DNA from: a virus
Length of the DNA stretch: 28,176 bases
IMG/VR virus record: IMGVR_UViG_3300050028_000010
Span: 1-28,176 of that record
Reading direction: 5' to 3' (one strand)
Shown here piece after piece: positions 4,607 to 19,790 of the stretch. The position numbers and the translations under genes are program-made. Each line of letters opens with the position of its first letter. Position 1 is the stretch's first letter. A model generated the notes under the pieces. It had not been told where the DNA came from. It was given only the letters and a program-made list of their open reading frames with translations, and did not search any database.

Positions 4607-5176
4607 CTACTGCGCGCGATGCTTCAGCGCGTACACCCTGTTGAATGCCTTTTTCGCAGCGCTCGGTGTAGCGCTCGGAGTTCCAAAAAGCTGGTGCGAC
4701 AGTCCCGCGCTGATGGTGTAGAACTGATCCTGTCCAATGAGTCCTCCGCCAGCATATCCGCCCGTGAAGGAAGTTGCGGGCGTGAGAGCGATCTGAAAGT
4801 TGAGGCGCCCCTCGACTCCAGGTTTTGTGGTACCGCTTGGAAGAGTGGCCACACCGCCGGCGAAGTCAATGCTCAGGCTCACCGCGTTCGGATCGAAGTT
4901 TAGCTTCTGCATAAGCGCCGTCAGGTCAGGCTGGTAGTTCACCAGTCCCCCGTAAAGCTCGAACACGGTCGGCACGATGACTTCCCGCGTTCCGAAGCTG
5001 ACAATCTGGTTCTTCGATGCGCCGCCGTAGAAGACGGGGAATTGCTGCGTCTGTTCCGTGCCCATGCTCCAGCCGTGCTGGTAGTAGACTGCGGAGGCTG
5101 TGCCGCCAGCTTGGACCTGCGCCACGGCGGGAATGCTCATGGCAAGGATGGTGCAAATCAGGATGATGCGTTTCAT
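4607..5176 (-). CDS. Secreted protein of the lysis block, possibly outer-membrane
   Basis: The 189-residue protein opens with a textbook Sec signal peptide, MKRIILICTILAMSIPAVA|Q (cleavage expected after residue 19). The mature part is rich in Gly, Thr and aromatic residues with alternating patterns (for example VEGRLNFQIAL and FYTISAGLSHQLFG) that resemble amphipathic beta strands of a small outer-membrane barrel. A helical, basic tail of about 20 residues follows, which is unlike a classic barrel C-terminus. The start overlaps the preceding short gene (ATGA at 5173-5176). It may alter the host surface, for instance by superinfection exclusion, or take part in outer-membrane disruption. I do not recognise the family. 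Confidence 0.72.
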   Translation of the reverse strand: MKRIILICTILAMSIPAVAQVQAGGTASAVYYQHGWSMGTEQTQQFPVFYGGASKNQIVSFGTREVIVPTVFELYGGLVNYQPDLTALMQKLNFDPNAVSLSIDFAGGVATLPSGTTKPGVEGRLNFQIALTPATSFTGGYAGGGLIGQDQFYTISAGLSHQLFGTPSATPSAAKKAFNRVYALKHRAQ

Positions 5177-5358
5177 GGCTGCTCCTTAGGTGGTTCGTAA
5201 ATTGCCATTTCTCCGTTTTCCAGTGAGCGGAAAAGGCATTGCGCTTCGCCTTCTGGTTGCGCTTGGAGAAGAAATAACAAGTAATCGCGCAAATGCGGGC
5301 TCATTTTTAGAACATATTCGACTGATGGCTCAGGGATACTAATGCCTTCTTCATTCAT
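5173..5358 (-). CDS. Hypothetical 61-residue protein
   Basis: Start ATG 5358 has GAGGAAAAACC just upstream, and the stop overlaps the next start (TGA/ATG at 5173-5176). The acidic protein has one predicted helix (about 14-33, YVLKMSPHLRDYLLFLLQAQ) and a short beta-like C-terminus. No signal peptide or TM segment. The overlap and ribosome site support a real gene; nothing indicates the function. Confidence 0.6.
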   Translation of the reverse strand: MNEEGISIPEPSVEYVLKMSPHLRDYLLFLLQAQPEGEAQCLFRSLENGEMAIYEPPKEQP

Positions 5359-5367
5359 GGTTTTTCC

Positions 5368-6198
5368 TCAAAGTGCTTTCTGTGCTGCCAGCAGCCCGTT
5401 CAAGTCTACTCCTGAAGGCGTTTGGCCGGTTTCAGATTCAACCCACGCGGGTGTCGTTACCACGTAATCCTCGTCCGCGAGCTTTAGCGAAAACTCCCAT
5501 GTGCCCTTGATCCATAGGCCCCACGAGCCAATGTGCCAGCCTACTCCACCTTGGCCGGCGCGGTTGACGCCGTGACCACCCACGATAGGAGAGTCCGGAA
5601 CATAGGTCCAGTTAGACGTGTCGTTCTCGGCCGATTTGGGGCACTGAATCCCCATCAGCGTTCCGCCAAACAGATCGCAGGCGTACCGCTGTTGCGCGAT
5701 AGAGCTTAGATCGAGCGATGCCCAGCCAAGAATCCGATGAATGACTTCCTTGCCGTTCTTGTCGAGCAGCGGAATACCGAATTCCTTCCAGTGTTTCAGC
5801 GCGTCGGTCCAGCAAGTCCCTTGGTCTGTGCTTGGGTCTTTGGGGTCGTATCCGGTGATGGCCGAATAGACCTCGATGGTCAGTTGCCGGGTTGGGGTCA
5901 GCGGGTTGGACGTATTCGCCGTCTCCTCCTGAGCGTAGTGCATCATGGCGGCGATAACGCAGTCCCCAAGTTCATCGTTGGCAAGGATGTCCAGCTTATC
6001 AGCCGGGACCGCATACTCCCAGCCGCGGGGCTTAACGGCCGGCCAGGTTATCGCCTTATCGAGAAAATCTCCGAAGGCGGGAGTAGTCAGCAGCTTCTTG
6101 GGTGGGAGTTTTCCGAGACAGAATCCCATGGTGTCCTTTCCTGTTTCTGGCAGGGGCAGTCCTGAGAACCGCGCCCACCAGTTGGTTAGCCAGTTCAT
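5368..6198 (-). CDS. Papain-like cysteine-peptidase-fold protein
   Basis: The 276-residue protein has the landmarks of the papain-like fold: NDELGDCVIAA with candidate nucleophile Cys80; YSAITGYDP-x-DPSTDQG (111-127); GGHGVNRAG with candidate His209; and an IGSWG segment (223-227) corresponding to papain's N-S-W-G. At the papain Asn position there is Gly224, and Asn74 stands where the oxyanion Gln is expected. Either the protein uses a Cys-His dyad or it is inactive. Similar proteins occur as uncharacterised genes in phages and actinobacteria. There is no signal peptide, although two Trp-rich helices begin the protein (MNWLTNWWARF). ATG 6198 overlaps the stop of the holin-like gene. It could cleave peptidoglycan cross-links, process virion proteins or act on host factors. 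Confidence 0.75.
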   Translation of the reverse strand: MNWLTNWWARFSGLPLPETGKDTMGFCLGKLPPKKLLTTPAFGDFLDKAITWPAVKPRGWEYAVPADKLDILANDELGDCVIAAMMHYAQEETANTSNPLTPTRQLTIEVYSAITGYDPKDPSTDQGTCWTDALKHWKEFGIPLLDKNGKEVIHRILGWASLDLSSIAQQRYACDLFGGTLMGIQCPKSAENDTSNWTYVPDSPIVGGHGVNRAGQGGVGWHIGSWGLWIKGTWEFSLKLADEDYVVTTPAWVESETGQTPSGVDLNGLLAAQKAL

Positions 6199-6527
6199 TG
6201 CTTGCTGGTGTCCGCCGCGTTCACTTCCACTTGCGTTTGCGGGTTGTCAGAGGCTTGGATGGCCTGAGCCGTTGCCACGATCCCCGCGGGCGAAAGAGAG
6301 TGCGAGATCTTAGCCCAGATCGCCGCTGCGATGAGGATGTTACTGCACACCATTCCGATCTTCGTGACAATGATGGGATAGCCAAAGAACAGCGTGGCTA
6401 TCTGGTCCCGCAAAGCCGAAGAGGAATCGTAAAGGACGGCAAAACCTAGCAGCCCGACCCAGACGGTATGCGTAGTTAGATTTTTACTTTTGAACCATGA
6501 ACCTATCTTTGCGAAAAATTCGTTCAT
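6195..6527 (-). CDS. Holin-like two-TM membrane protein
   Basis: The 110-residue protein has a basic N-terminal helix (FFAKIGSWFKSKNL), a TM segment at about 21-36 and a second at about 46-72. Its hydrophilic C-terminal tail is Gln/Ala/Asp-rich. Size, two TM segments and placement in the lysis block fit a class II holin, which would release the endolysin encoded downstream. The ribosome site AAAAGGAG lies about 6 bases before ATG 6527. Its stop overlaps the papain-like gene's start, so these two are co-translated. Holin identity is inferred from topology and context, not from family similarity. Confidence 0.65.
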   Translation of the reverse strand: MNEFFAKIGSWFKSKNLTTHTVWVGLLGFAVLYDSSSALRDQIATLFFGYPIIVTKIGMVCSNILIAAAIWAKISHSLSPAGIVATAQAIQASDNPQTQVEVNAADTSKQ

Positions 6528-6554
6528 TTTGGTTCTCCTTTTTCGGTGCCTGCT

Positions 6555-6641
6555 TCATCGGTTTCTGTCCCGCTTCTCTGCCAGCACCACGCAGACCGAG
6601 AGCAGCAGCGCTAACACGATGCCGATGTCACACCAGTTCAC
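6555..6641 (-). CDS. 28-residue single-TM micro-protein
   Basis: A GTG at 6641 opens a frame for a 28-residue peptide, MNWCDIGIVLALLLSVCVVL followed by AEKRDRNR. It is one clean TM helix with a basic tail. The GTG overlaps the upstream stop (GTGA) and its own stop overlaps a downstream ATGA. Without this and the next entry, 6528-6713 would be an empty gap inside an otherwise gapless operon. Candidate roles are a small lysis regulator or antiholin. No Shine-Dalgarno is obvious, so translation would depend on coupling. Confidence 0.45.
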   Translation of the reverse strand: MNWCDIGIVLALLLSVCVVLAEKRDRNR

Positions 6642-6703
6642 AGGTCATCTTTCTGCGGCTCGTCCAGCGGCTCAGGCTTTTCAGGCTTTCCCATACGAAT
6701 CAT
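6638..6703 (-). CDS. 21-residue Pro/Lys/Glu-rich micro-ORF
   Basis: The frame reads MIRMGKPEKPEPLDEPQKD and ends TGA overlapping the GTG of the micro-TM gene. It begins 10 bases after the stop of the coiled-coil/TM gene. Its repeated KPE/EP pattern is striking, but the ribosome site is weak (GGGG). A second ATG lies at 6694. It may be mainly a translational bridge. Confidence 0.3.
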   Translation of the reverse strand: MIRMGKPEKPEPLDEPQKDDL

Positions 6704-6713
6704 AATAACCCCG

Positions 6714-7087: not shown

Positions 7088-7435
7088 CTAAAACCTCAGC
7101 GCCATGCCCGCTCCGAACCCGTGTACGCCCATCACAATCCACGGCACCAGGCGTCCGACCCTGTGCCCATGCTTCTCCATCGCGTAGTCGATCAACGTTC
7201 CTGCTGCCGCTGTGCTGAGCGCGATGCTGTACTGTCTGCCCGCGCTGCCCTGCATCAACGGATTCGCCTCGTGGCAGGTGTTCGCGTCGATGCACCGGCG
7301 TGTGGTGGTCACGTCCAGCGCGGCTGCGCCCAGGCTGGCACCGTTGACGATCAGGAAGCCGGGAGTCGCCACGCGCTGGGGCTGCTGCGCGTGAAGCGGG
7401 AGGCAAAGGGCGAAGAAAATAAGCAGCCAGCGCAT
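7088..7435 (-). CDS. Secreted or membrane hypothetical protein
   Basis: The 115-residue protein begins with a Sec signal peptide, MRWLLIFFALCLPLHA|Q, supported by GGAG six bases before ATG 7435. The mature protein has Cys48 and Cys54 (RRCIDANTCHEANPL), which could form a disulfide in the periplasm. Two hydrophobic helices follow (about 70-86 and 97-112). It is placed between a fibre-like secreted protein and the lysis genes. An envelope location is well supported; the family and function are not recognised. Confidence 0.7.
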   Translation of the reverse strand: MRWLLIFFALCLPLHAQQPQRVATPGFLIVNGASLGAAALDVTTTRRCIDANTCHEANPLMQGSAGRQYSIALSTAAAGTLIDYAMEKHGHRVGRLVPWIVMGVHGFGAGMALRF

Positions 7436-7457
7436 GAGGGCTCCTATGTGATCGGGA

Positions 7458-8921
7458 CTACGGTGTTGAATACTGTGCGGTAACTACAAAAGAGTCAGTG
7501 GTGCAGGTCGCGCCAGCCGTCGATATGTAGATGCCGATTTGGTCACCGGCAGCGAAGGTGCGCGTCTGCGCCTGAACAGTGGCGTTCCCCTTGGTTTGGG
7601 TAGTGGCTGTCGCCGTAACAGCGGTGCCAACGTTGCTGGTCCCATCGAATACGTTGAACTGTGGCGGAGTGGTGCAAGTGCCACCAAGAGAAGCAATGAC
7701 TTGGAGATTGGTAAAGTGACCAGCCTGAGATGCCTTCGTTCCAGCAATGACAGTGTTAAGAGCAGAAGCGCCGAATAGGCCGGGACCAGCCGAGATCGTC
7801 CCCTGCGAAATTACGAATGCTGTGGTGGCTATCTTGGTGCTGGAATCCCCCGCAGGCTGAGTGGTGGCGGTGGCCCCGTTGGTAAGCACAGGTGCTACCA
7901 AAGTAAGAACGTTGGGAGTGGTGATGCCAAAATCTATCGCGTTACCAGCAGTATTGACGAGCAACTGGAAGGTGGTTCCTGTCTGGAGTAATATAGGACC
8001 GGAAGTAGTCTGTAGTGTGATGTAGCTACCAGAGGCACTAGGACCTCCCTCATATATTGTTATTCCACTACTGCTGTTGTCGTAAATCTCAGTTCCCGCG
8101 TTACTGATCAGAGTCATAAAAGAGGCAGAAATAAGCTCTAGACCATGAGTTGACGTGTCAGTCAAACTTGTGCCATTTACGGGATCGCCCAAAACTAATT
8201 CTGCCGGGCTGCCGCTAGCTGCCACCATATCCGTTTTTCCGGAAGATACAGAATAGAAAGTGGTGCTGGCATCTTGGGTGGAATCAAGCGTCACTTGATC
8301 TGGAGTAGTCACGTTGTAATCAATCGTTCCGTTTCCAAGGGTGTTTGTCCCGGTCGCAAGCGGATAGTACCCCGATGTCAGTGTGCCGGAGAGATTTCCT
8401 CCGCCGCTGCCAGAACAGTTGGCATAACTTCCGTTTGTTAGCCAGCAATTCGAGGATGATCCACCGTTGTTAGCTTCTAACCCGGTTCCCGTAATGGTGC
8501 CAGGGAACACCGGGTTATTAAGAGGGGTTCCGTCTGGAGATGCCGTCATGTTGATTTGAGCGGCCCCGGAAGAAAAACTCGATGCCTGTACAAGCACGAA
8601 GGTAGAAAGCCCGTTGGCAACGGACCAATTTCCATTACCTGTAATCTGCGCTTGCAGGCTCCATGTCTGCGAGTTGAGATTCTGAAAGCTAGCATTCGGC
8701 GAAGTGACCGAATAGACTTGGAGCGTACCCGACCAAGTGCCGGAGACTTGAATAGTCACCCATGCCGTATTGGGGGGAACCTGAAAATACACGCATCCAC
8801 GCGCCGTGCATTGATTGCTCGTCGCGGCGGCGTTGATCGTTCCTGATGTGGATGTGTTTTGGGCGTAGCAACATGAGGCGAGGATAAGCGCCCATGTAAA
8901 TAAAAGAACTCGTCTTGTCAT
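7458..8921 (-). CDS. Fibre/adhesin-like protein with lipoprotein-like signal
   Basis: I start at ATG 8921 (AAAGGA nine bases upstream), giving 487 residues. The leader MTRRVLLFTWALILASCCYA has a lipobox-like L-A-S-C, so Cys17 could be lipidated; cleavage by signal peptidase I after A20 is the alternative. Next come a beta-sandwich region (about 25-135, CVYFQVPPNTAWVTIQVSG) and a long Ser/Thr/Gly-rich repetitive shaft. The fibre motif ATTQPAGDSSTKIATTAFV (about 352-370) follows, then a C-terminal beta domain with paired Cys (about 380-487). The PAGDSSTKIATTAFV pattern is typical of phage tail fibres. In-frame ATG 8996 overlaps the preceding micro-gene's stop and would give 512 residues with a buried leader. 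Confidence 0.78.
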   Translation of the reverse strand: MTRRVLLFTWALILASCCYAQNTSTSGTINAAATSNQCTARGCVYFQVPPNTAWVTIQVSGTWSGTLQVYSVTSPNASFQNLNSQTWSLQAQITGNGNWSVANGLSTFVLVQASSFSSGAAQINMTASPDGTPLNNPVFPGTITGTGLEANNGGSSSNCWLTNGSYANCSGSGGGNLSGTLTSGYYPLATGTNTLGNGTIDYNVTTPDQVTLDSTQDASTTFYSVSSGKTDMVAASGSPAELVLGDPVNGTSLTDTSTHGLELISASFMTLISNAGTEIYDNSSSGITIYEGGPSASGSYITLQTTSGPILLQTGTTFQLLVNTAGNAIDFGITTPNVLTLVAPVLTNGATATTQPAGDSSTKIATTAFVISQGTISAGPGLFGASALNTVIAGTKASQAGHFTNLQVIASLGGTCTTPPQFNVFDGTSNVGTAVTATATTQTKGNATVQAQTRTFAAGDQIGIYISTAGATCTTDSFVVTAQYSTP

Positions 8922-8940: not shown

Positions 8941-9114
8941 ATGTTAGAAACACTCGTCATTGGGTATGCCTTCGCTTGGATTGCGGTGAAAGTCATTGCA
9001 TCGGTGATTGAGTGGGAATGTCGGCGCTCGATGTGCTCAGATTCTGCGCCGGTGCCATTGCCGCAAGCGAGAGCAATGCGGTCAATCCTATCATCTTTGC
9101 GAGTCGACTCATGA
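8941..9114 (+). CDS. Antisense mini membrane protein, copy 1
   Basis: This plus-strand frame lies opposite the minus late operon. From ATG 8941 it encodes 57 residues: one TM helix (LETLVIGYAFAWIAVKVIAS), then VIEWECRRS and an unrelated tail. Its first 30 residues align without gaps to the protein at 9276: MLE-T/S-L, AFAWIAV, (E/D)WECRRS. By my count 18 of 30 base differences in the aligned 90 bp fall at third codon positions of this frame, 8 at first and 4 at second, which is the mark of selection on this protein. No Shine-Dalgarno or promoter is visible. It overlaps the minus-strand gene 8993-9112 and the leader of the fibre-like gene. Confidence 0.5.
   Translation: MLETLVIGYAFAWIAVKVIASVIEWECRRSMCSDSAPVPLPQARAMRSILSSLRVDS
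8993..9112 (-). CDS. 39-residue secreted micro-protein
   Basis: ATG 9112 overlaps the upstream stop (ATGA), and the frame encodes a signal peptide, MSRLAKMIGLTALLSLAAMA, followed by PAQ and a 16-residue Ser/Thr/Gln-rich mature peptide. The expected cut after A22 gives A-P-A|Q, the same A|Q style as the other secreted proteins in this window. Its TGA overlaps ATG 8996. The C-terminus (ADIPTQSPMQ) resembles the end of the ejection protein encoded at 9322 (GDTPNQSAQPQQ), because the two regions are homologous. Small, but supported by coupling and the clean signal peptide. Confidence 0.5.
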   Translation of the reverse strand: MSRLAKMIGLTALLSLAAMAPAQNLSTSSADIPTQSPMQ

Positions 9115-9275: not shown

Positions 9276-9473
9276 ATGCTGGAATCGTTAATCGTCGGCT
9301 GCGCCTTCGCGTGGATCGCTGTCACTGTTGCGGTTGCGCTGATTGATTGGGAGTGTCGCCGGTCGAATTCTCCTGTCCAACGGAAGAAAACGATCCAAGA
9401 GATGTTGCGTAGGATTGAACGCGAGCGAGAGCTTGAGCATAAGGAATCTTTCCGCCCTTGCTCACCGCGATAG
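9276..9473 (+). CDS. Antisense mini membrane protein, copy 2
   Basis: The 65-residue plus-strand frame starts at ATG 9276 and encodes one TM helix (LESLIVGCAFAWIAVTVAVA), then LIDWECRRS and a charged helical tail with KKTIQEMLRRIERERELEHK. It overlaps, antisense, the last 50 codons of the ejection protein ending at 9322. It is paralogous to the frame at 8941, with an excess of synonymous third-position differences. The ribosome site is not visible, so expression may be leaderless or low. Function unknown; the topology (short N-terminus, TM, basic cytoplasmic coil) would suit a membrane regulator. Confidence 0.5.
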   Translation: MLESLIVGCAFAWIAVTVAVALIDWECRRSNSPVQRKKTIQEMLRRIERERELEHKESFRPCSPR

Positions 9474-10971
9474 CTAACCTCGACTTTATGTTGGGATTGT
9501 CCAGCACCGCCTTTGCAACCATCGCCACTTTGCCGAGCGTAGTGCTGCCAGTAACAGCCGTCGCTGCTGCTCCAGCAACAGGCGTTCCAATCCCAATGAT
9601 CTGATGGTTAGAGATGCGATTCACAGCACGCTCAAGAACTGGTTGCAAATCCAACAGTTTCCCCTCTGCGGCATTCAGGTTGCTGATTTCTGGAAACTGC
9701 GTAGCGATCTCTTCTTTCAGACCACGCGCAAGTGCCTTTTGAGCCTCAACCGTTGCGCTTCCCTGCTCTCCATATTTACCCTTAAGCACACCATAGGTTC
9801 CCTGCTTCATGGCTTGCGCGTCAATAGCATTCATCGGAGGGGCTGGGGTTGGAGGAACTGCGGGTGTTCCACCATTCATTACAGATCGCCCATACGCATC
9901 GAGTATTCCAGTTGGCTGAGGGGGGATAGCAGGGACACCCGGACGAGCTCCGCGCTCGGCGAGGAACTGCTGACGGGTCGCTTCGATAGCGTTCAAATCC
10001 GGCTGTGCAACAACTTGATTACCGAATCTATCGAGCGTTGGCTGAATGCGCGTTGCTACTGCGTTCGGATCAATCGTCCGTGTCGGGTCTTGCGCAATGG
10101 TTCCCTTGATCTTGTCGTTGAGATCGTCGATCAAGTCGCCGAGCTTCTCCACGCCTGCCTTGGATACCGGGATGGCATTCTGAAGCCCGGTCTGCACCAT
10201 CGAAGCCCGATCCGCTTGGCTGATAGTGGTTCCCGGCTTCATGGCGCTTTCGTATGCAGCCTCCGGCGTCTTGCCAAGCAGAACTGCGCGGCCCGCTACG
10301 TTCGGCACGGCATTCATCGCGGCCTTTGCGACTGGTGCGGCAATGCGTCCGCCTTCGTAGGCTCCTAACGCCTGCCCTGTCAAGTTCTCAGCTGCCAGCG
10401 GAACGCCGCCTTGTTGGTAATCGTTCTGTACTTGTTGCCCGATGGCCTTGGCAGTATCGATAGGATGGCGCACCGTGTTGTACAGGCCCTCTAACGTGTC
10501 GAGGGGGTGAATCACCGGCTGCACCATCGCCTTGACCGCTTGGCCACCAACTTGGAGCGCGCCCCCGAGAACACCTTGATCGCGGCCACCAGAGCCGACA
10601 GGATTTGTGAGTGCATCCCAGTAGCTTGCCTTTGCAGCGTCTGGTACTTCGAGCGGAACCATTTTGAAACCCTTCGCTGCGGCATCGGGAACACTCTCAG
10701 CGGGGATATACCCATTTTCCCCGTCAGGAGAAGTCATCTGCACGGCCACTTTGAATCCTGCCTGCTTGGCTGCCGAAACATTCGTAATCGGAACATCTCC
10801 CGTATGCCCATCGGGTGACAGCATCGTTATGGTGGTATTCTCCGGCGGAGGATTGTTTACGTTAGACACCTCTCCGCCATTAGGAGGCGTGGAGATTCCT
10901 TCCCGAGAGGAATCTAGCGGAGGCCTTGGAGTGGCGCTGATGCCGGTATAAAGCTGCGGAGTGGTTGCCAT
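9322..10971 (-). CDS. Putative ejection / internal virion protein
   Basis: The 549-residue protein is the last of three genes lying where P22 encodes its ejection proteins. It begins with a Pro/Asn-rich segment. Two tandem 26-residue repeats follow, at 50-75 and 79-104 (M-x-SPDG-x-x-G-x-(V/I)P-x-x-x-V-x-x-A-x-x-x-GFK(V/M)). Next are helical regions with amphipathic Ala/Gly stretches (about 145-235 and 455-500) suited to membrane insertion, a Pro-rich linker (about 345-380) and a polar tail. No lysozyme motif is visible. ATG 10971 shares one base with the previous stop (TAATG). Function is inferred from gene order and composition; plausibly it enters the cell envelope with the DNA. Confidence 0.6.
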   Translation of the reverse strand: MATTPQLYTGISATPRPPLDSSREGISTPPNGGEVSNVNNPPPENTTITMLSPDGHTGDVPITNVSAAKQAGFKVAVQMTSPDGENGYIPAESVPDAAAKGFKMVPLEVPDAAKASYWDALTNPVGSGGRDQGVLGGALQVGGQAVKAMVQPVIHPLDTLEGLYNTVRHPIDTAKAIGQQVQNDYQQGGVPLAAENLTGQALGAYEGGRIAAPVAKAAMNAVPNVAGRAVLLGKTPEAAYESAMKPGTTISQADRASMVQTGLQNAIPVSKAGVEKLGDLIDDLNDKIKGTIAQDPTRTIDPNAVATRIQPTLDRFGNQVVAQPDLNAIEATRQQFLAERGARPGVPAIPPQPTGILDAYGRSVMNGGTPAVPPTPAPPMNAIDAQAMKQGTYGVLKGKYGEQGSATVEAQKALARGLKEEIATQFPEISNLNAAEGKLLDLQPVLERAVNRISNHQIIGIGTPVAGAAATAVTGSTTLGKVAMVAKAVLDNPNIKSRLAIAVSKGGKIPYAQALARVQSYATSLGSFSSVGQENSTGDTPNQSAQPQQ

Positions 10972-12602
10972 TAGTGAGCCTTTCCGCCGAACTGCGCAAA
11001 CGGATCATTGCTATTGTTTTGTACCGAAGCGCCCTGTGGAGTGGCGTTACCCTGGTTCATTCTCGCGGCGAAAGAGGGATCGAGTGCGGCCCGCGCCTTA
11101 ATCGCCTGCGGGCTGATACCAGGCATCGGTGCTTCGTATGCTTTGCTGGGGGCGGCGTTCTGCCATTGCTGCTGGAAGCTGTCCAGTTTATCGCCCATCG
11201 ACTGCGCCTGCGTCTGGATCGCTGCTTTCCGGTTTCCGGGGAGTTGCGCTGTGAGCGTCTTCTTAATAGCATCAATCGCGGGAATAGTAGCATCGCCGTA
11301 GAATTTCGCGAGTTCGGAGGCTACGGTGTCGGCCTTGTTCTGGTAGGCGTTATAGTCGGGAGTTCCTGGAATATGGCTCTCGACTGTGTTCATTTGTTGG
11401 AGTTCGTTGAGATGGGAAAGAGCCGTCCCTCCAGAGTTGATTGCAATGCTGGTTTTCCCGGAGGTAAAATCCTTGTACGTCGCGGGATATGATTGGGCTT
11501 TCGAGCCGTCAAAGGATGGATCAATCTGCATCACTCCTGAAATTAAAGCAGGATTCCGAGCAAGCAAATACCCCATTCTGTCAAGGGGAATATGACCACT
11601 CGCGATAGCCTGGGCCAGATCACTTGGTTGCCCATTCGTTCCAATTCCCATCTGCTGTTGCTGGAGTGCCGTGCGCTGCGCTTCAAGTCCCAATGTCTGC
11701 TGGCGGAAACTGTTCGTTTCATTCCTTTGGGATGCTGTGGCCTGTGAGGTCACAACTTCGGCAGGTGTCATTCCAGCTTGAAGAATCTTCTGCTGGTCAA
11801 ACTGTTGCGGAAAGTTCTTCGCAATCTTCATCGGCAACTCGCCAAGCGCGGCCTGATAGGTCGCCTGGTCAGGAGACGCCGCAAGCTGTTGCGCCGCATT
11901 CTTGAGCACCAGCGAATCCGATGTAGCCTGTTCGCCGGGGGCCTTGATTCCTGCCGTCTGCGCGCCGGTCTGCGCTGTCTGCATTCTCGCAACCGACGCA
12001 AGGAATGCGGAACTGACCCCGAGCCCATGCTGCATCGACTTCAGTTGATCGTCCGTAATCGCCGCCGGATTCTGCATCATCTGCTGAGCCTGTTGTGGCT
12101 GGATCGCCTTGGCCTGGACGGCAGTCTGAATCAACGGCGTCATTAATTGCGCGCGCTGTTGCGGGTCGGTCACGCCTATAACGCCATTGATGCCGTTATA
12201 GACGTTATTCGATAGCTCCTGCTGATTGGCGAGCTGATCCTTGGTCATGGTCAGCACGGTCTGCTGGTGCTGCATGAGTTGCTGTTGGGCAGCCATGATG
12301 CCCTTGCCAGAGACTCCGGATTGCGCAAGTGTCTTGCCGACCTTGATGGGATCGAAAGCGTTCGGATCAGACGGGTCAATACCCATAAACCACTTAGAGA
12401 TTCCCTGCTGGTCCTTCAAGTCCTGCTGCCTCTGTTGCAGTTCAAGGCCGCCCTGCTGCACTTGTTGCTGGGCGGCTTGCTGCTGCAATGGTTGCATAGC
12501 CTGTTGATTCTTTATCTGCATCAGTTGCCCGTACTGCTCCAGCACGTTAGGCGAGGGAGAGGGCGGGCGTACATCTAAAGCCGGGAGAGGAATCGAACTC
12601 AT
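10971..12602 (-). CDS. Gln-rich putative ejection protein
   Basis: The 543-residue protein is very rich in Gln, with a coiled-coil-prone N-terminal third (QQQAAQQQVQQGGLELQQRQ and surroundings). Helical segments follow throughout, including LMTPLIQTAVQAKAIQPQQA. The C-terminal third is more globular (SYPATYKDFTSGKTSIAINS, then SHLNELQQMNTVESHIPGTP) and ends DPFAQFGGKAH. No enzymatic motif or TM segment is evident. It overlaps the DNA-transfer gene by ATGA (12599-12602) and abuts the next gene. Long Gln-rich helical proteins next to the gp7-like gene are typical of podovirus internal/ejection proteins. The specific P22 counterpart (gp20 or gp16) cannot be settled from sequence reading. Confidence 0.6.
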   Translation of the reverse strand: MSSIPLPALDVRPPSPSPNVLEQYGQLMQIKNQQAMQPLQQQAAQQQVQQGGLELQQRQQDLKDQQGISKWFMGIDPSDPNAFDPIKVGKTLAQSGVSGKGIMAAQQQLMQHQQTVLTMTKDQLANQQELSNNVYNGINGVIGVTDPQQRAQLMTPLIQTAVQAKAIQPQQAQQMMQNPAAITDDQLKSMQHGLGVSSAFLASVARMQTAQTGAQTAGIKAPGEQATSDSLVLKNAAQQLAASPDQATYQAALGELPMKIAKNFPQQFDQQKILQAGMTPAEVVTSQATASQRNETNSFRQQTLGLEAQRTALQQQQMGIGTNGQPSDLAQAIASGHIPLDRMGYLLARNPALISGVMQIDPSFDGSKAQSYPATYKDFTSGKTSIAINSGGTALSHLNELQQMNTVESHIPGTPDYNAYQNKADTVASELAKFYGDATIPAIDAIKKTLTAQLPGNRKAAIQTQAQSMGDKLDSFQQQWQNAAPSKAYEAPMPGISPQAIKARAALDPSFAARMNQGNATPQGASVQNNSNDPFAQFGGKAH

Positions 12603-13618
12603 ACGGATGCCCCCAATTCGTTTACTGGTTGGCCTGAAGGGTTATAGTTATAGTTGGCGGTATTTGAGTTGTTCCCCAGAAGCGAATTCAGTTGCAACAT
12701 CTGGCTCAAGCTATTCGTGCCTCCATTGATCGCGCCTCCCAAGGCGTTCGCACTTCCGACGTACCCTGATGCCGTCGCTGCGGCCGCGTTTGTATTTTGC
12801 TGCCCGACTTGCTGCCCAGTATTGCTGAGCGTGTTCGCTACCTGGCCGGCGCTTTGGAGGCCCGCTGAACTCAGTTGCTGCGCCGTCGTCTGCCCCAGTC
12901 CCGATTGCGCGGCGAGTTCGTTGTACTTGGTCGCGTTCTGATTCGCCCAAGTATTGTAATTCGTGTTGTAGGTCTGGAGCGCTTGATTGTAAACATTGTT
13001 GTAATTGGTGCTGGCGAGCCCCTGCGCATACTGGTCAAGGGCATTCATCGTGCCGCCGGTAAGAAGTGAGCCGTTCGCGGCGGCGCTGCCCTGCACGGCG
13101 CCTTCGCCCTGCTGGAGCGCGAATTGTTCACCCGGAGATGCCGCCGCTTGTGCTGCCGTGGGAGCCGCGAACTGCCCCCCAGAGTAAGGCTGCATCAGTG
13201 AGCCATAAGCGCCTAGATTCGTGTTTGCCGTTCCCTGCAATCCCTGGACGCCGGGGAGCGTTACCGTGCCGTTGGCGCCGGGGATGCTTAGCGTTTGGCT
13301 CGCTCCAGTGGTGTTGCTTCCCACGGTGCCGCTCGTGCCGCCCTGTCCAAGTAGATAATCGAGGCTTGCGAGGTTATTGGCTCCGCTCTGTAGCCACGGT
13401 TGGTCATTGGCCTGGGCCTGTTGGTACTGGTAATTCTCATTCTGAAGCGATTCCTGGCCGAGATCCGCCTGCATCGCAGCGTTATTCTCAGCAGCGGTAG
13501 CCTGAGTAGAGGCTGCGTTTTGAGAGGCATTCGAACCGATGATGCCGCTGGCAACGCTTCCCCCCGCCGCCAGAGCACCGCCAATAAGTAACGCCGTGCC
13601 TGTTGCGATTCCGCTCAT
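12599..13618 (-). CDS. DNA-transfer (ejection) protein, P22 gp7-type
   Basis: The 339-residue protein has the recognisable pattern of phage 'DNA transfer/injection' proteins. It has a hydrophobic, Gly/Ala-rich N-terminus (IATGTALLIGGALAAGGSVA) and a Gln/Asn/Ala helical stretch with QPWLQSGANNLASLDYLLGQ. A Gly/Thr linker follows, then the core SPGEQFALQQGEGAVQGSAA-x-x-GSLLTGGTMNALDQYAQG, an N/Y-rich helix and VGSANALGGAINGG near the end. Family members are packaged in the capsid and ejected to help genome passage through the envelope. ATG 13618 directly abuts the cupin stop (TAAATG) and has a GAGG site. This is the best identified of the three ejection genes. Confidence 0.82.
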   Translation of the reverse strand: MSGIATGTALLIGGALAAGGSVASGIIGSNASQNAASTQATAAENNAAMQADLGQESLQNENYQYQQAQANDQPWLQSGANNLASLDYLLGQGGTSGTVGSNTTGASQTLSIPGANGTVTLPGVQGLQGTANTNLGAYGSLMQPYSGGQFAAPTAAQAAASPGEQFALQQGEGAVQGSAAANGSLLTGGTMNALDQYAQGLASTNYNNVYNQALQTYNTNYNTWANQNATKYNELAAQSGLGQTTAQQLSSAGLQSAGQVANTLSNTGQQVGQQNTNAAAATASGYVGSANALGGAINGGTNSLSQMLQLNSLLGNNSNTANYNYNPSGQPVNELGASV

Positions 13619-14077
13619 TTATGCCTCTTTGCTCCTTCGAGAGAGCAAGTCTTCCGATTCATCTGTAAACTCTGCCTCTGCCTCTTCTACAGTCTTCGCA
13701 GCGGATGGGAAAAGCATCGTGATTTCTGTTTCATTTTCTCCGAACGTGGCATAAGCCTGAATGCGATGGGCGCTGGCTGCGAGCACATTGTAGCCACTCA
13801 TAATATGCCATTTACCATCGACAAACACGCAGCATTCGCCATGAACAATAACTAGAGTCGGAATCTTGATCATGACGCTGGTAAAAGCCATATTCGGAGC
13901 AACCCGCGATGTACGCGCATACATCCCGCCGTGCAAATGGTGCTCCATCTTGCACCTGAAACTTGCCTCATGCGGCCTTATTTTTGCAGAAGCCTCGCGG
14001 ATCATTGCCTCAACCTCGGGTGTTACCGGAGGGAGCGCATAAAGACCGCATTCGTCCGCTGGTAAGGCCGGAGGCAC
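13619..14077 (-). CDS. Cupin-like phage protein
   Basis: The core reads HHLHGGMYARTSRVAPNMAF, then VMIKIPTLVIVHGECCVFVD, GKWHIMSGYNVLAASAHRIQ and ETEITMLFPSA. This is a small double-stranded beta-helix of the cupin kind found in many phage genomes, with candidate metal-site His residues near the GGMYAR turn and in SAHR. The start is uncertain. GTG 14077 (about 152 residues, GAGAGG upstream) overlaps the GNAT gene by 55 bases. TTG 14134 has a strong AAGGAG but would overlap by 112. The cupin core is the same either way. It lies between GNAT and the gp7-like gene. Ligand unknown; it may be a regulatory or accessory virion protein. Confidence 0.72.
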   Translation of the reverse strand: MPPALPADECGLYALPPVTPEVEAMIREASAKIRPHEASFRCKMEHHLHGGMYARTSRVAPNMAFTSVMIKIPTLVIVHGECCVFVDGKWHIMSGYNVLAASAHRIQAYATFGENETEITMLFPSAAKTVEEAEAEFTDESEDLLSRRSKEA

Positions 14078-14484
14078 GATAACAACCTCTCGAATTGGCT
14101 CCCTGTCCGCGCACTGTACGAGATCACTTCGCAATCCTTCTCCTTCCCGTAAGCCTCAATCGCATTCATGAGCGCATTTCCGGCGCGGCAAGTGCGATAG
14201 ACCGGAGACACAAAGAGGCTTTCGACATTCGCAATCTTTCGCCCATAGTGGGGCAACATAAAGTCTAGCGCCGAAGCAAATCCAATTAACTCGGAACCTG
14301 CGAACGCGCCGAAAGATTGGAACATGCCGGAACGTTCCATTTGCGCGTACATTTCCGGCTGTGGGTTCGTCTCGCCAATCTCCGGGATCGAGCATTCTGC
14401 GCTGTAGGCCGCAAGCAAGATTGCTGCGTTCGAAGCGCCTAGAATCTCTGCGTAACTGATTGGCCGCACATCAAGAGTCGCCAT
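14023..14484 (-). CDS. GNAT family N-acetyltransferase
   Basis: The 153-residue protein has the GNAT signature. Beta-4 is VESLFVSP (87-94). The acetyl-CoA pyrophosphate loop is in YRTCRAGNAL (96-105), followed by the helix ALMNAIEAYGKEKDCEVI and the beta-5 segment SYSARTGSQFERLL. Phage GNATs may modify host proteins, virion proteins or surface sugars; the substrate cannot be read from sequence. The gene lies directly after the tailspike. Its ATG at 14484 is 20 bases from the AGGAGG (14505-14510), too far for normal use, while an 8-codon frame at 14497 is ideally spaced; see that entry. It overlaps the cupin gene out of frame. Confidence 0.83.
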   Translation of the reverse strand: MATLDVRPISYAEILGASNAAILLAAYSAECSIPEIGETNPQPEMYAQMERSGMFQSFGAFAGSELIGFASALDFMLPHYGRKIANVESLFVSPVYRTCRAGNALMNAIEAYGKEKDCEVISYSARTGSQFERLLSCLRPYQRTNAVFMRSLR

Positions 14485-14510: not shown

Positions 14511-17228
14511 TCAATTGCAAGTGCATGATCCATTTGAAGCCACCGCGGTTGAGCAATAGCCAATCACACCGTTGGCCTTCCAACAGGCGGCGGCATTTAC
14601 TGACGGCGTAACCGCGTTGATCGTGTCGCCGGCCGCATCGTATACCGCCATGCCGCCCGTGCTCGGATTCCCTGTTGAGTGCTGAAGCTTGACTCCCGTA
14701 CCCTGATTGTCGGTCAAGGCACTTCCACCGCTGAGGGTAAAACTCGTACTGAGAGTGTCGCTGTCAACCGGCCTGATCCCAATCCACGCCACCGCGCCGT
14801 TCTGCGTTGCGGAGAGCAGTGAGATGCGGAACTGATCGCCACCTAACCCGGTAGCATCTGCGTCACAGGAGGCGATCTGGTAGCTCGTTCCCACGCCGGT
14901 AACTGTCGCACAGGATGCTATGCTCGTCCAGACCGAAGCCTCGTCCGCCTGTAGATAAATCGACCAGTTCGACGTACTCGCCGCCGATGCGATCTTGGCG
15001 TAGAAGCGGAACTTTCCTGCCGGGATTTGCGAGCCGATATAGAAGTTTGTGCCATTAGCTCCGTAAAGATAGAAGTTAGCTCCTGAGACCGTAGCAAAAT
15101 TCTCCCCCGTCTCCGAGTTGGCATCAGGAACCGGCACGGGCTGTGTTGCTCCCAAACCAGTCAACTCATCTGGCCACATCCACAAATCCTGAGAATTGAA
15201 GTAGTAGCTAGATGCGCCCGTGTTGATGAAGTCGGAGCGCCTATCGAACGCTTTGCCCCCGTGCGAAAGGTTAGGAGGCCCGAAGGCACTAACTTGCAAT
15301 CCGTAGTATTGTTCTCTACCCGCCTGATGGCCTCCGTAGGGATTTGAGGATGATGCTGTGGTAAACGTGTTACCGCGCCCCGTGATGGTCGGTGTCGCAG
15401 CGCTCGTGAGCGCATTTCCACCGTGCGGCGATGTAAAAAAGTTAAGGTCTCCCGTCACATTGAAGGCCGCGATGTGGTTAACGTACATATCCTTGAGTGT
15501 TGAGGAGGAGGCATCCCATTGAATCGTTCCAGGATTGCTTGTGCACATCGCCGCTTGGAAGCGATCCAGCGTGTGATTCAACCCCGACAAGCGCAGCGCC
15601 GTGTTTGCGGCTGGACAACTGCTGTCCGGCTCCATCTCCCGAATATCGATCACCCAGTCGGAAGGCGTGGATTCAACACTCAATGATGAAATAAACTGCG
15701 GTCCTGCGTCCACTCCGGCAATCTGCATTGCGGAGATCGTACCGAAGCCCGCGGCGTAGGTCTGGAACGGATACTTGGCTCCGATAAAGATATTCTGCCA
15801 GGTGTTGAAATCGTTGTTTCCTGCCCACATCGAGGCAGTTGGGGCCACGGTACTCTCAGGCACATAGGAAAATCCCCATGTAGCGCTCACAGTAACGTTC
15901 TGCCAGCGCGTCCAGGTCGGTGCTTCGTTGCCCTGAAAGAAGAATCCGCAACTGGTGTTTAGTTGACTGTTGCTCAGGGATTCAATAGCAAAATTAGTAA
16001 AATCGCTCTTGAAAGGTCCCGCGTCTAAAGGCGCTGTCGCCGCTCTATCGGGATATGCGAAACCGCAGTTGCCGATGGTTGCTGTGACAGGGAGCCCAAG
16101 AATGCTGATATAGGCATTGAGTCCTGTTCCACTCGGAACTGTGGTGGCGAGTGTGACCTGTGTCGGGGATTGGTAGGAAAGTATTGTGGTTGTAGTCGAG
16201 CCGACCGTGATTGCTTGGTTAGGGGTCGCGTCTCCCGGTTGAAACAAGCACTGTGCCGCAGAGGTGATGACCGCTGTACCATTCGCCACGACGTCCATGC
16301 AAATGCGACCCGGCTTGCGGTAAGGGAAACTCGCGGAGGCATCCACCGAGTCATCCACGATCACTGCGAAATCACGCATGGCGAACGAAGGAAGCGGCGC
16401 GATTCCGCCATCGGCAGCATCCACCAGCGCGAACACGTCCTGACTCGGAGCGCCGCGAACGGCGACAGGCAGCGTATACTGGTAGAAATTTCCCGGTCCG
16501 CTGCCCCCTGGAGGCCCGAACATGCTCACACCCTTAGGATTTATCGCAGTTGCGATGTAGTAGACAGTCTGAGTCGTTGCGCTGGGATTTGATGGAAAGA
16601 ATACACTGGCACCCGACACATAGGCCGCATCGATTGCCCTCTGGATTGCATCGTGGTTATTCGTGCATCCTGCCGTTGAGCCGGAGCCCGTGCAGTCGCC
16701 AAGCGCATTGTAGGGCGGGGCGGCAACGTTGATGATGCCGTTCACATTGGCGTTGTTCACGCTGCTCGGTGCAATTGGATTGCCGTTGACGATGTTGACT
16801 GCAGCTCCCTGCGCTGTCGTCGCGCCTGTGCCGCCCCAGAGGATTGGGCAAACTACGCCTGTATTCGGACCGCAGCCGATGAATCCCTGGATCTGGTCAA
16901 CAGTCCACTGCTCTACGCCAGAGGCGCAATTCGTGCCGCCTGTGCTGAACCCTACGAACTTGTAGGCATTGGCGCTGAGCCAGATCACAGCGCTGCCGGT
17001 GGAATCAAGGGGAATCGGATTCGGATTTGCGGTGCCACCTGTGTAATCGGTATAGGTCGCTAGTGGCGTTGACGTTCCACCCGAGTACGTGAAGATACAG
17101 CCGTTCGCCAGCGGTACGCCGTTCGGATCAAGGAAGGTGGCGCGCGGGGTCTGAAACGGCGCTACCGTAACCTGTGCGAGTGCCGATGCCGCAAATGCGA
17201 AAGCGAGAAGCGCGAATAACTTCTTCAT
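14511..17228 (-). CDS. Tailspike-like beta-helix protein with Sec signal peptide
   Basis: ATG 17228 (GAGAGG upstream) gives 905 residues beginning MKKLFALLAFAFAASALA|Q, a clear signal peptide. Residues about 20-100 form a phage head-binding-like module (ATFLDPNGVPLANGCIFTYS, then TPLATYTDYTGG and GSAVIWLSANAYKFVGF). A pectate-lyase-type right-handed beta-helix starts near 173 (YNALGDCTGSGSTAGCTNNH, DAIQRAIDAAYVSGASVFFP). Long repetitive strands follow to about 680. A jelly-roll-like carbohydrate-binding region is around 690-830 (FYIGSQIPAGKFRFYAKIAS), and the tail is Cys-containing. Family knowledge makes it a candidate polysaccharide depolymerase or adhesin; catalytic residues cannot be placed by eye. 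It stands alone with a 149-base gap upstream. A secretion signal on such a protein is unexpected. Confidence 0.82.
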   Translation of the reverse strand: MKKLFALLAFAFAASALAQVTVAPFQTPRATFLDPNGVPLANGCIFTYSGGTSTPLATYTDYTGGTANPNPIPLDSTGSAVIWLSANAYKFVGFSTGGTNCASGVEQWTVDQIQGFIGCGPNTGVVCPILWGGTGATTAQGAAVNIVNGNPIAPSSVNNANVNGIINVAAPPYNALGDCTGSGSTAGCTNNHDAIQRAIDAAYVSGASVFFPSNPSATTQTVYYIATAINPKGVSMFGPPGGSGPGNFYQYTLPVAVRGAPSQDVFALVDAADGGIAPLPSFAMRDFAVIVDDSVDASASFPYRKPGRICMDVVANGTAVITSAAQCLFQPGDATPNQAITVGSTTTTILSYQSPTQVTLATTVPSGTGLNAYISILGLPVTATIGNCGFAYPDRAATAPLDAGPFKSDFTNFAIESLSNSQLNTSCGFFFQGNEAPTWTRWQNVTVSATWGFSYVPESTVAPTASMWAGNNDFNTWQNIFIGAKYPFQTYAAGFGTISAMQIAGVDAGPQFISSLSVESTPSDWVIDIREMEPDSSCPAANTALRLSGLNHTLDRFQAAMCTSNPGTIQWDASSSTLKDMYVNHIAAFNVTGDLNFFTSPHGGNALTSAATPTITGRGNTFTTASSSNPYGGHQAGREQYYGLQVSAFGPPNLSHGGKAFDRRSDFINTGASSYYFNSQDLWMWPDELTGLGATQPVPVPDANSETGENFATVSGANFYLYGANGTNFYIGSQIPAGKFRFYAKIASAASTSNWSIYLQADEASVWTSIASCATVTGVGTSYQIASCDADATGLGGDQFRISLLSATQNGAVAWIGIRPVDSDTLSTSFTLSGGSALTDNQGTGVKLQHSTGNPSTGGMAVYDAAGDTINAVTPSVNAAACWKANGVIGYCSTAVASNGSCTCN

Positions 17229-17377
17229 TGAATCCTCTCTAGGTTGGGGCCACATATAGAAGCTGAGATAATCTTGCCGAGCGATATGGAGGATGATCCC
17301 ATATCTGCATCTTACGCACTGCCTTTCAGTCCCCGCGTCACTGCACGTTCAGGCTCAGGCTCAATAGTTGAAGGCAA
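17229..17377. other. Largest intergenic gap in the late operon
   Basis: 149 bases lie between the fibre gene stop and the tailspike start. On the minus strand I see the tailspike ribosome site (GAGAGG) and a weak 25-codon frame (MGSSSISLGKIISA start) ending in ATGA over the tailspike ATG. No convincing promoter or terminator is visible. A plus-strand frame through this gap has no support. Confidence 0.4.
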
Positions 17378-18673
17378 CTACGGTAACCACGCGCAACTGC
17401 TGCCAGCCTGCACCGTTAAAGTCCCGGCATTGATCTTGGCATAAAGCGTGATCGTCTGAGCATTGGTGTTCGTGCTCACGGTGAAAGCTACGTGCGTTTG
17501 GTAGAAGGTTGTGGCTCCTGCTGCGGTCAGTGCTGCCGTGAAAGCTGTCTGAGTGGCCGAAGTGACTACCGCGACAGGCAGGAAGTTCGTGACCGTGCTG
17601 GTAGAGCCATAAGTTTGTGATCCGGCGATCCAGAGGCCAGTCAGGGTAGCACTTGTGTTCAACGCAAAGGTCGGTGTATCGGCGGTGGCACTGGTCTCCC
17701 AGATAATATCGCACTCGCCTTGGCGCGTGGTGCTGGCGGGCACGGCCTGCATCACCAAGCTGGTCGTGGTCAACGCGGCAAAGGATGTGGAGGTGGTGGT
17801 ACCGTTCGCGGCCATGACCGTTGTGTTTTTACTGATCAAAATGTTATTTACCGTTGTTATCCCACTAAAGGTGTTCGTACCGGAGAATGTCTGGTTTACC
17901 CCTAGAATCGCAAATGTGTCGGGCCCTCCCAAGGCCGGTATTTGGAGAGTATGGTTTCCGGTTGGAGGGGCCGCGCTGATAGTCACAGAGTATGTCGCAC
18001 CGCCGAGGATGAGGGCGCCGAACCAGTTAGAGGCTGTGCCTCCAATCGATCCGTTTCCCGCACCGTTGGATACTAGACCAGCATTAAAAATTGGAGCTAT
18101 TGCAAATACAGGGGCCGTCGTGCTAAAAGTTGGTCCTGCTGTAAATGTCTGCACGGTTCCTAGCACGGCCAGCGTGTCCGTAGCTGCTGGAACCGTCATG
18201 ATGAAAGCTGAGGTCGCCGCCGCTGGAGTAAGCGATACGCTGCCGGTAGCAGTTGAGGATGACAGCTTCAGAATGCCTGTTGTGGTTCCAGCTACGCCGA
18301 CAGTCAGTGTCGGTGAAGACCACGTCAAGTTGGCGCTGCCTGCAAGTGCTGAAGTTGTTCCGGCACTGTACAAAAGCTGTGTCCCAGTGATATTGGCCAA
18401 GGTGCCTAGTTGTGCTGCGGTGGCTGCTGCCGGAGCGCTAGAGGTAGAGTTGAACTGGAAACCGGATATTGCTGCCCCGCTCAATGTCTGTACCGTTCCC
18501 GCCGCCGAATAATATGGAACATCATACTGAGCCGCTGCATTCACGGTCGGTGCCCCGCTCAACGAAGAGTACGGATAACCGTTATTGGCTGACTGAGCGT
18601 GCGCTATCCCTGCAAACAAGGCCAGCGCCAGACCGAGCTTAATTAGTGCGTTCAACTTCTGCATGAAGGTCAT
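17378..18673 (-). CDS. Fibre-like secreted protein
   Basis: The start is ATG 18673 (GGGGA close upstream) or ATG 18664; both keep the signal peptide MQKLNALIKLGLALALFAGI-AHA|Q. The 431-residue protein is rich in Thr, Ser, Ala and Gly. It has two related beta modules: SVSLTPAAATSAFIMTVPAA then TDTLAVLGTVQTFTAG, and SVTISAAPPTGNHTLQIPAL then DTFAILGVNQTFSGTN. Both follow the phage-fibre pattern of a strand pair, a 'TLTIP' strand and a 'QTFSG' turn. The C-terminal ~140 residues form a separate beta domain with Cys (GECDIIWE and SSCAWLP ends). The start lies within the end of the preceding gene (35-base overlap). Probably a surface adhesin or fibre; a virion role is unproven because of the signal peptide. 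Confidence 0.75.
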   Translation of the reverse strand: MTFMQKLNALIKLGLALALFAGIAHAQSANNGYPYSSLSGAPTVNAAAQYDVPYYSAAGTVQTLSGAAISGFQFNSTSSAPAAATAAQLGTLANITGTQLLYSAGTTSALAGSANLTWSSPTLTVGVAGTTTGILKLSSSTATGSVSLTPAAATSAFIMTVPAATDTLAVLGTVQTFTAGPTFSTTAPVFAIAPIFNAGLVSNGAGNGSIGGTASNWFGALILGGATYSVTISAAPPTGNHTLQIPALGGPDTFAILGVNQTFSGTNTFSGITTVNNILISKNTTVMAANGTTTSTSFAALTTTSLVMQAVPASTTRQGECDIIWETSATADTPTFALNTSATLTGLWIAGSQTYGSTSTVTNFLPVAVVTSATQTAFTAALTAAGATTFYQTHVAFTVSTNTNAQTITLYAKINAGTLTVQAGSSCAWLP

Positions 18674-19790
18674 AAGTCCCCGTTCCGCTGGTGCAAGCTG
18701 TGTAAGTGGTGGTGTAACTGATGGCCGAAGATGTAGCCGACCAGAAAGGGAGCGCAACATCAACGAAGCCGCTAGCCGTAGAGATGGTGGTATTGGTGAG
18801 CGTCAAAGGAATGGTCTGCGCCGTGTGCGCGGCAGTTGCATCTGTCCAACTAACTGTTGCGTAAACCGAACCTGTGCCAGTCGTGCAGAGCGCGTTCTGA
18901 TCCAGGTAAAAACGGACAAGGTAGTGCCCTGCCGCGCCCGTAGAAGCGATGAGGTTTTGGGTGGTCAGAGACGAAGATTGCGCCGTCTTATCTGAAACAC
19001 CTTCAACGGTGACGAGCCCAAGACCCGCCGTGGTAATACCATCGTAGGTTGTTGCCGCGCCGCTGCTGTTCAGAATGAAGCCGCTGAGACAAGCGAGTTG
19101 TGTTGCCGACGAACCGTAAACCACTTGGCCAGTTCCGCAGCTCGAAGGGTGCCCAACCGTACTCCAAACCGGAGCGGAGGCTCCCTGCCCGATCAAGGGC
19201 ATGTTCGATGCACCCTGCGCAGTGGATGTGGGTGCGCCACCCGTTCCGCCTCCTAACAAGATGCCGTATTGCGTGAGAAGGCCGGTCGATCCCCAGGCGC
19301 TGTTGCTCGAAAAGTAGACGATGCCTCCGCTCGTACCTGAGATGGTCATCGTCACGGACCCAGTCGAACCGCTGTTGGTGACCACCGTTCCATCGCCCGT
19401 AAACGAGGCGACGCCAGAGCCAGTTCCTGTGGCCGGATTCTGCAACTCCATGTCGGTTCCGTCGTAGATGAATGTGGCGATCTGAGTTGTGATCAAATCG
19501 TTCGCAGCCAGCGCCGAGGTACCCTTCTTGGTGATCGTCTTTGCGCCAAGGCCACAGAAGTTGAGCGTCGGCGTAGTGATCGAATTGGCGTGAAGCGGTA
19601 GCACCTTGATAAACATGCCGGTGGTGTAGGCGGCTGGGCAACTGTTCACCGTGGCCGTGAGCACGTTGGCGGCACCAGTGTCAGCCGCGTAGGAGGGTTG
19701 CAACTGCACTTCAGGGTAGTTAGCCGTCTGCGCCAAAGCCTGAAGACTCAAGACGCCGGTGATCGCGAGAAGCGAAAGAAACTTTTTCAT
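18639..19790 (-). CDS. Tail-fibre-like secreted protein
   Basis: ATG 19790 follows AAGGAG with 6-7 bases spacing; the upstream frame to 19991 would lie inside the previous gene. The 383-residue product begins MKKFLSLLAITGVLSLQALA|Q. Residues about 25-120 match a common phage fibre module: SYAADTGAANVLTATV, GMFIKVLPLHAN, TLNFCGLGAKTITKKG and ATFIYDGTDMELQNP. A Gly/Ser-rich shaft follows with GILLGGGTGGAPTSTAQGAS, a typical fibre linker. The C-terminal beta domain (about 270-383) begins TAQSSSLTTQNLIASTGAAG and ends DLHAEVERTN. Cys residues are several, fitting oxidation after export. The fibre module is clear; the signal peptide is the surprise. Confidence 0.8.
   Translation of the reverse strand: MKKFLSLLAITGVLSLQALAQTANYPEVQLQPSYAADTGAANVLTATVNSCPAAYTTGMFIKVLPLHANSITTPTLNFCGLGAKTITKKGTSALAANDLITTQIATFIYDGTDMELQNPATGTGSGVASFTGDGTVVTNSGSTGSVTMTISGTSGGIVYFSSNSAWGSTGLLTQYGILLGGGTGGAPTSTAQGASNMPLIGQGASAPVWSTVGHPSSCGTGQVVYGSSATQLACLSGFILNSSGAATTYDGITTAGLGLVTVEGVSDKTAQSSSLTTQNLIASTGAAGHYLVRFYLDQNALCTTGTGSVYATVSWTDATAAHTAQTIPLTLTNTTISTASGFVDVALPFWSATSSAISYTTTYTACTSGTGTYDLHAEVERTN

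Follow-up and report, generated by a model that had tools for sequence, protein, structure and literature searches.

Predicted signal peptides ahead of the head-binding domain suggest that spikes of a P22-like phage lineage leave the cytoplasm before joining the virion

Introduction

The common view is that tailed phages assemble entirely within the cytoplasm, and a spike gene that opens with a secretion signal raises the question of where its product could join the virus particle. This question is posed by IMG/VR record IMGVR_UViG_3300050028_000010, a virus fragment of 28,176 bases (the whole of this stretch is called the window below) with a P22-like late region on the minus strand, where all window features described here lie unless stated otherwise. 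In this region, a putative tailspike gene of 905 codons (14511-17228) begins with a predicted signal peptide. A preliminary description, made from the letters alone, had listed seven late genes with Sec-type leaders, argued that their products should leave the cytoplasm, and proposed release in trans, attachment to virions outside the cytoplasm, or use of the leaders as hydrophobic virion anchors. Comparison of homologous domains suggests that in soil phages of the window type the spikes are exported from the cytoplasm and only later become part of the particle, which sets them apart from the related phages that were compared.

Head-binding domain of the spike

The spike is predicted to comprise an 18-residue signal peptide (17175-17228; rule-called, MKKLFALLAFAFAASALA|Q), a tailspike head-binding or virion-anchor domain with Cys26 and Cys83 (16878-17174), and a long distal part, with 18 cysteines in all. 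Its residues 20-116 align, wholly or in part, with N-terminal domains of proteins from five phages (six records): PBR31, P26218 (twice), DSL-LC05 and two uncultured podovirus genomes (MW202483, MW202674). The proteins matched are spikes, fibres or hypothetical ones. When 59 domains of this kind were combined into a profile, it matched the solved head-binding domains of the Pam1 (7eeq, expectation value (E) 6e-15) and Pan3 spikes (PDB 7eeq/9vyg). An AlphaFold2 model of the domain (mean predicted local distance difference test score 82) was matched by Foldseek to the head-binding domains of Pan3, Pam1 and P22, and the 14 best rows of a second fold search were all tailspikes or tail complexes of Pan3, Pam1, P22 or Sf6 (Z 6.9-10.3), its 13 best chains reaching Z 8.0-10.3 over 81-95 residues. 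By these profile and fold matches, the predicted mature spike starts with a neck-binding module. The domain is present in a single copy, and no second, leaderless copy was found within the window. The spike of the window gave no Pfam match, and that of a relative, L039, gave a weak pectate-lyase-like match below the cut-off.

The spike thus has the N-terminal head-binding fold of P22-type tailspikes, but its translation does not start at that domain, which is preceded by the leader. It resembles the P22/Sf6-type tailspikes and the cyanophage Pam1 and Pan3 spikes in this fold and in the company of gp4- and gp10-type late genes; however, the Pam1 and Pan3 domains lie within about 12 residues of the chain start, whereas the window spike has a leader first and a cysteine pair. 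The N-terminal domains of the Xanthomonas phage PBR31 spike (49% identical over 94 residues) and of Rhodoferax phage P26218 gp26 (39% over 85 residues) are closer in sequence, yet both proteins start directly at the domain, without a leader and without cysteine in it. The statement of the preliminary description that known podovirus spikes and fibres lack secretion signals agrees with the homologues in the five named phage records, all of which start at the domain (5/5).

Leader calls in the late region

Leaders were called by rule-based scoring of n-, h- and c-regions, which does not exclude Tat signals; the starts of 26 late genes were those first proposed, and the lower calling threshold was 8. 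Seven of the 26 genes scored 10.1-14.1 and the other 19 received no call, which bears out the seven leaders at their minus-strand positions. Alternative starts in those 19 frames, or up to 60 codons into them, likewise yielded no leader. Threshold 8 was reached by chance in 1.5-1.8% of controls (79 of 5200 N-termini after shuffling, 88 of 4800 segments from inside proteins). The leaders have the predicted features of Sec substrates cut by signal peptidase I: a charged n-region, a hydrophobic core and an A-x-A-like cut.

In a stricter scan, limited to open reading frames of at least 90 codons with a ribosome-site motif, leaders were found in four of 30 window frames: the spike, the gene at 4607-5176 and two fibre-like genes, F1 (18639-19790) and F4 (7458-8921). 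The same scan found leaders in two of 90 frames from stretches of the five phage records with leaderless spikes. One of these two is the PBR31 esterase gp40, a phage gene whose signal peptide has already been published (as given in an excerpt of PMC10975493), and which is not a spike with a virion-binding domain. Three of the seven window leaders fall outside the strict scan, with that at 18673 lacking a clear ribosome site, that at 7435 unconfirmed and that at 9112 opening too short a frame; a scan that demands a ribosome site also overlooks leaders called by the plain rule elsewhere, for example in L015. The proposed gene set holds as to the seven leaders, real by the rule, but not entirely as to the genes, as the leader at 9112 opens a mere 39-codon frame. 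A-x-A|Q-like cuts are possible in all seven, but for the gene starting at 5176 the rule favours AVAQVQA|GG over AVA|Q.

Homologous domains with and without a leader

Homologous domains were collected from genome and virus collections at an E cut of 1e-6, with up to 80 loci listed in one search, and gave 117 distinct domains at 92% identity. L185, near-identical to the window, counted as leaderless and carrying two or more cysteines, was excluded as truncated, since the domain is cut by the start of its contig. Among the remaining 116, a leader precedes the domain in 34 (33 by rule and L048, missed by the rule, by eye) and is lacking in 82. The search of related phages for leaders on the same family, which the preliminary description had advised, thus finds them at the same place as in the window in part of the family. 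The leaders vary in sequence but end at about the same residue, and 32 of the 34 have A/G/S-Q no more than three residues away from the junction. The mature leader-bearing proteins start where translation of their leaderless relatives does. Of the 82 leaderless rows, 80 have an ATG no further than three codons from the domain start; only 2 of the 34 leader-bearing rows do, and there the two Met codons are inside the leader and have no ribosome-site motif. At L009, a GTG with such a motif is found. True starts downstream of the leaders in homologues had been named as grounds for giving up the proposal; such starts are seen only in leaderless relatives, with named hosts of other phyla, and not in close relatives.

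On a tree of 116 rows, L185 included, the leader state needs eight changes, one of them due to L185. Eight further spikes beside F4-type genes, outside the 116, all have leaders (six by rule, two by eye), with 2, 2, 2, 1, 2, 4, 1 and 2 cysteines in the aligned part. Three weak matches (L139, L141 and L142), all with rule-called leaders, failed the E cut and were read as not the domain. At L210, the same leader and head-binding-domain start occur twice in tandem (7905 and 8399, plus strand), both with a TTG start as called.

Cysteines as a possible sign of export

Within the aligned domain, leader-bearing copies have zero (7), two (26) or four (1) cysteines, and leaderless copies zero (72) or one (10), as would be expected if the leader-bearing copies fold with disulfides in the periplasm; were L185 kept, one of 83 leaderless rows would have two or more. 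The pairs are mostly at 26 and 83, with shifted forms in L014 and L209 and a pair at 70 and 96 in L015 and L135. In closed, distinct mature proteins, cysteine averages 18.8 per 1000 residues with a leader (n = 30) versus 6.1 without (n = 58; Mann-Whitney p 7e-12, a comparison that, like the others on cysteine, ignores kinship). Paired cysteines in the leader-bearing domains fit disulfides that may form in an oxidising compartment.

Apparent host phylum of the leader-bearing phages

All six strong matches from Acidobacteriota have leaders (6/6). In the first genome search (24 loci), the four from this phylum (L022, L026, L033 and L039, with the taxonomy of L033 and L039 checked) all carry one, versus none of 20 from Pseudomonadota, Bacteroidota and Planctomycetota. 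Five of 396 genomes from the phylum of L033 match, with leaders in G003 (L033 itself), G251 and G291, the last two being close to each other; a match in G122 (E 7e-4) was read as not the domain. Four of 296 genomes from the phylum of the Bacteroidota locus L029 match, two with leaderless domains and two with weak matches read as unrelated proteins. For the phylum to which the Burkholderia locus L024 belongs, five of 299 genomes match, and in no case does a leader stand at the domain.

In G251, an Acidobacteriota-phylum genome, the locus belongs to a prophage remnant within a contig of 6.4 Mb; the remnant also encodes an Sf6-type terminase small subunit and a phage lysozyme, and three of its leader genes are consecutive. 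Hosts of the lineage appear to be Acidobacteriota, and for the window phage itself such a host is suggested by L022, which comes from an acidobacterial bin and has 61% identity to the window in gp10, although binning can err. One survey reported 35 putative prophages in 19 Acidobacteriota genomes, and the prophages of this phylum did not cluster with sequenced phage isolates (according to an excerpt of PMC5900883). The uniform A|Q style, earlier ascribed to adaptation to one host's secretion machinery, fits this phylum because acidobacterial leaders often have Q after the cut: by the rule, Q stands there in 14 of the 30 leaders called in G251 (263 genes), versus 3 of 17 in a Burkholderia genome (198 genes).

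Two neighbourhoods may be recorded here. At L148 (16141-19421, plus strand), the prophage remnant's lysozyme gene is followed by an unmatched gene and then by one for an MBOAT-family O-acyltransferase. At L150 (10224-19901, minus strand), a frame of at least 3226 codons adjoins the one leaderless acidobacterial domain match, which is taken up in the Discussion.

Other leader-bearing genes

Pfam and PHROGs scans of ten proteins picked at first look gave almost nothing for the leader genes. F1 (383 codons, leader LQALA|Q) and F2 (17378-18673, 431 codons, leader GIAHA|Q, the one without a clear ribosome site) are called fibre-like by position. F4 has the leader ASCCYA|Q and a beta-rich N-terminal domain common to other leader-bearing proteins of virus contigs. 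A lipobox-like LASC had been pointed out in this gene, starting at 8921; as the Cys+1 lipobox is not conserved in homologues and A/G/S|Q mostly is, the leader is better read as ending in CYA|Q. The leader AAMAPA|Q just upstream is complete but belongs to the 39-codon frame (8993-9112), whose mature start QNLSTSS resembles the QNTSTSG of F4 just downstream; this frame is perhaps a relic of a duplicated leader. A small gene (7088-7435) carries LPLHA|Q and matches DUF5658 weakly, below the cut-off. The gene near the lysis genes (4607-5176; IPAVA|Q) has no family match, and that its product might be an outer-membrane-type protein is only a guess.

F1, F2 and F4 found no match in the phage collection by tblastn at E 0.01, nor did the F4-type domain at E 1, and the contrast between leader-bearing and leaderless proteins therefore rests on the head-binding domain. 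For the F4-type domain, 22 of 28 loci were examined, the remainder being near-copies. A leader was called by rule in 16 of the 22 and by eye in three (L260, L261 and L274); the three without one have the domain internal (L266 and L269) or only 29 residues ahead of it (L268), so that this set gives no clean contrast. A fold search with the F4 domain returned the prophage protein YomS at a moderate template-modelling score and was uninformative.

In five relatives (L013, L007, L011, L186 and L201), the gene immediately after the coat carries a leader; among the matches listed, that of L013 aligns just with stretches of 42-63 residues in tail proteins of named phages. To test how general the leaders are, Peptidase_S74 proteins were sought in Acidobacteriota genomes, where they occur in 47 of 347 with up to 15 matches in one, and 8 of 30 loci have a leader; nothing is drawn from these loci because many of the frames lack their 5' end and genes of the host surface are not distinguishable from those of phages.

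Layout of the late region

PHROG matches place the window among P22-like podoviruses, with portal 156, major head protein 283 and head closure Hc3 578. By such matches the late order starts with the portal (26485-28173; no leader seen, its 5' end possibly outside the window), a scaffold, the major head protein (24157-25401), a gp4-type head-tail adaptor (22165-23124; weak match to Ad3) and a gp10-type head closure protein (Hc3, 20640-22157), the last three of these coordinates being those of leaderless genes. A leaderless gene starting at 20638, without a family match, comes next, and then the leader genes that start at 19790, 18673 and 17228. The spike is followed by an adjoining GNAT-type acetyltransferase gene (14023-14484; Pfam PF00583); the PBR31 tail region likewise has an annotated acetyltransferase. 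Three leaderless genes then fill the interval before F4 (9322-13618), of which 12599-13618 matches a DNA ejection family and the other two are ejection-type by position alone. The region ends with the leader genes starting at 9112, 8921, 7435 and 5176 and then an endolysin (PHROG 315). Portal, coat, gp4-, gp10- and ejection-type genes, with the gp4 match weak and two of three ejection genes placed by position, give a late region of P22 type. Between the fibre-like and lysis genes, the product of 5368-6198 matches PHROG 19005 (E 4e-18), a family whose function is not known, and an open frame at the window edge (1-375, plus strand) encodes pentapeptide repeats (Pfam PF00805, E 1.7e-13).

Discussion

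Export of the spike is well supported by the predicted leaders and the comparative domain data, as the preliminary description had expected, and export followed by docking outside the cytoplasm is the best reading of the spikes in this lineage and a probable one. The spike and, by position, the fibre-like proteins would be made as preproteins, exported by the host Sec machinery and cut by signal peptidase mostly before Q, a step strongly supported by the sequences. The exported proteins would then fold in the periplasm with disulfide bonds, as the cysteine pairing suggests, and the mature spike would begin with its head-binding domain. Heads would be built and filled in the cytoplasm, since capsid, portal, neck and ejection-type proteins are leaderless. 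Spikes and heads would most likely meet only once lysis opens the inner membrane, and the spike would dock on the gp4/gp10 neck as the last step of assembly, outside the intact cytoplasm. Docking after lysis is plausible because P22 tailspikes are added last in assembly and are able to attach to completed heads in vitro. Of the three explanations offered at the outset, attachment outside the cytoplasm is the best fit, given the virion-binding domain at the start of the mature protein.

Release in trans, in which leader-bearing spikes and fibres are secreted to cut capsule, mask receptors or exclude superinfection and are not virion parts, is unlikely but keeps some weight: the leaders and the cysteine pattern argue for export only, and a cellular tailspike-like enzyme with an export signal exists. 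This is Pantoea WceF, a tailspike-like trimer made with a Tat signal (in an excerpt of PMC7949094), which differs in being encoded by a bacterial gene linked to exopolysaccharide and not by a phage late gene. On the other hand, a head-binding domain with its fold kept at the mature N-terminus has no evident use in a free enzyme, and the window holds no other copy of it to serve the virion. Export might also be partial, with chains that escape Sec keeping the leader and assembling in the cytoplasm while the exported chains do something else. Export by Sec is sometimes inefficient, and nearly all leader-bearing genes lack a second start at the domain, as this account would have it; a retained leader, however, would precede a domain that in relatives starts a few residues from the Met, and the cysteine pairs favour folding in an oxidising place, so that partial export is considered improbable.

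That the leaders stay uncut as virion or membrane anchors is suggested by their hydrophobicity but seems very improbable, because the cleavage motif is conserved in sequence and position among otherwise variable leaders, and the domain occurs in relatives without any leader. Least credible is the view that the leaders are chance or misplaced start codons. The background of the rule and the three leaders outside the strict scan speak for it, but for the spike it is already contradicted by the homologues, in which a leader stands before the same domain across distant relatives and no ATG is found at the domain in 32 of 34.

Several observations weigh against export and docking as read here. Leader and cysteine pairs partly share ancestry, the starred branches of the tree forcing only two changes of leader state, and an independent-pairs test had too few pairs. 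A ribosome-site motif is found in just 49 of 82 leaderless rows, so that its absence from leader-bearing rows says little. The phylum counts rest on bacterial-genome loci, and one weak acidobacterial match, G203 (L138, E 1.2e-14), has no leader. Seven of the 34 leader-bearing domains lack cysteine altogether, and among the 30 closed leader-bearing proteins the number is odd in 4; whole-protein parity separates poorly, with even numbers in 26 of 30 leader-bearing versus 25 of 34 leaderless proteins with two or more. The leaderless gp10 of the window is itself cysteine-rich (9 in 505). Core proteins were compared in loci selected from both groups, 18 with a leader and 13 without; gp10 (12.6 (17) versus 9.0 (11) cysteines per 1000 residues, numbers of proteins in brackets) and the coat (8.6 (11) versus 5.1 (3)) are also richer in the leader-bearing phages. 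The portal (2.7 (10) versus 5.3 (1)) and the ejection protein (0.0 (16) versus 1.0 (5)) are not, and core proteins differ less between the groups than spikes do.

More tentatively, export and docking could extend to a group of phages of diderm Acidobacteriota, in which the appendages (spikes, fibres and, in some relatives, the protein after the coat) may be exported, disulfide-bonded and docked onto filled heads at lysis, so that assembly would take place in two compartments. Phage-encoded exported proteins such as spanins and Bor/Lom-type proteins are familiar, but they are not spikes with a virion-binding domain. Among the matches listed in a search of PubMed Central (PMC) literature, no paper was found that describes a signal peptide on a tailspike with a head-binding domain. 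For annotation, there is a risk that spike leaders are wrongly trimmed or that such genes are taken for bacterial. If a neck-binding virion part is indeed routinely exported, phage assembly would be split between compartments, spikes could be stabilised by disulfides, and a signal peptide on the spike may be a marker for phages of Acidobacteriota.

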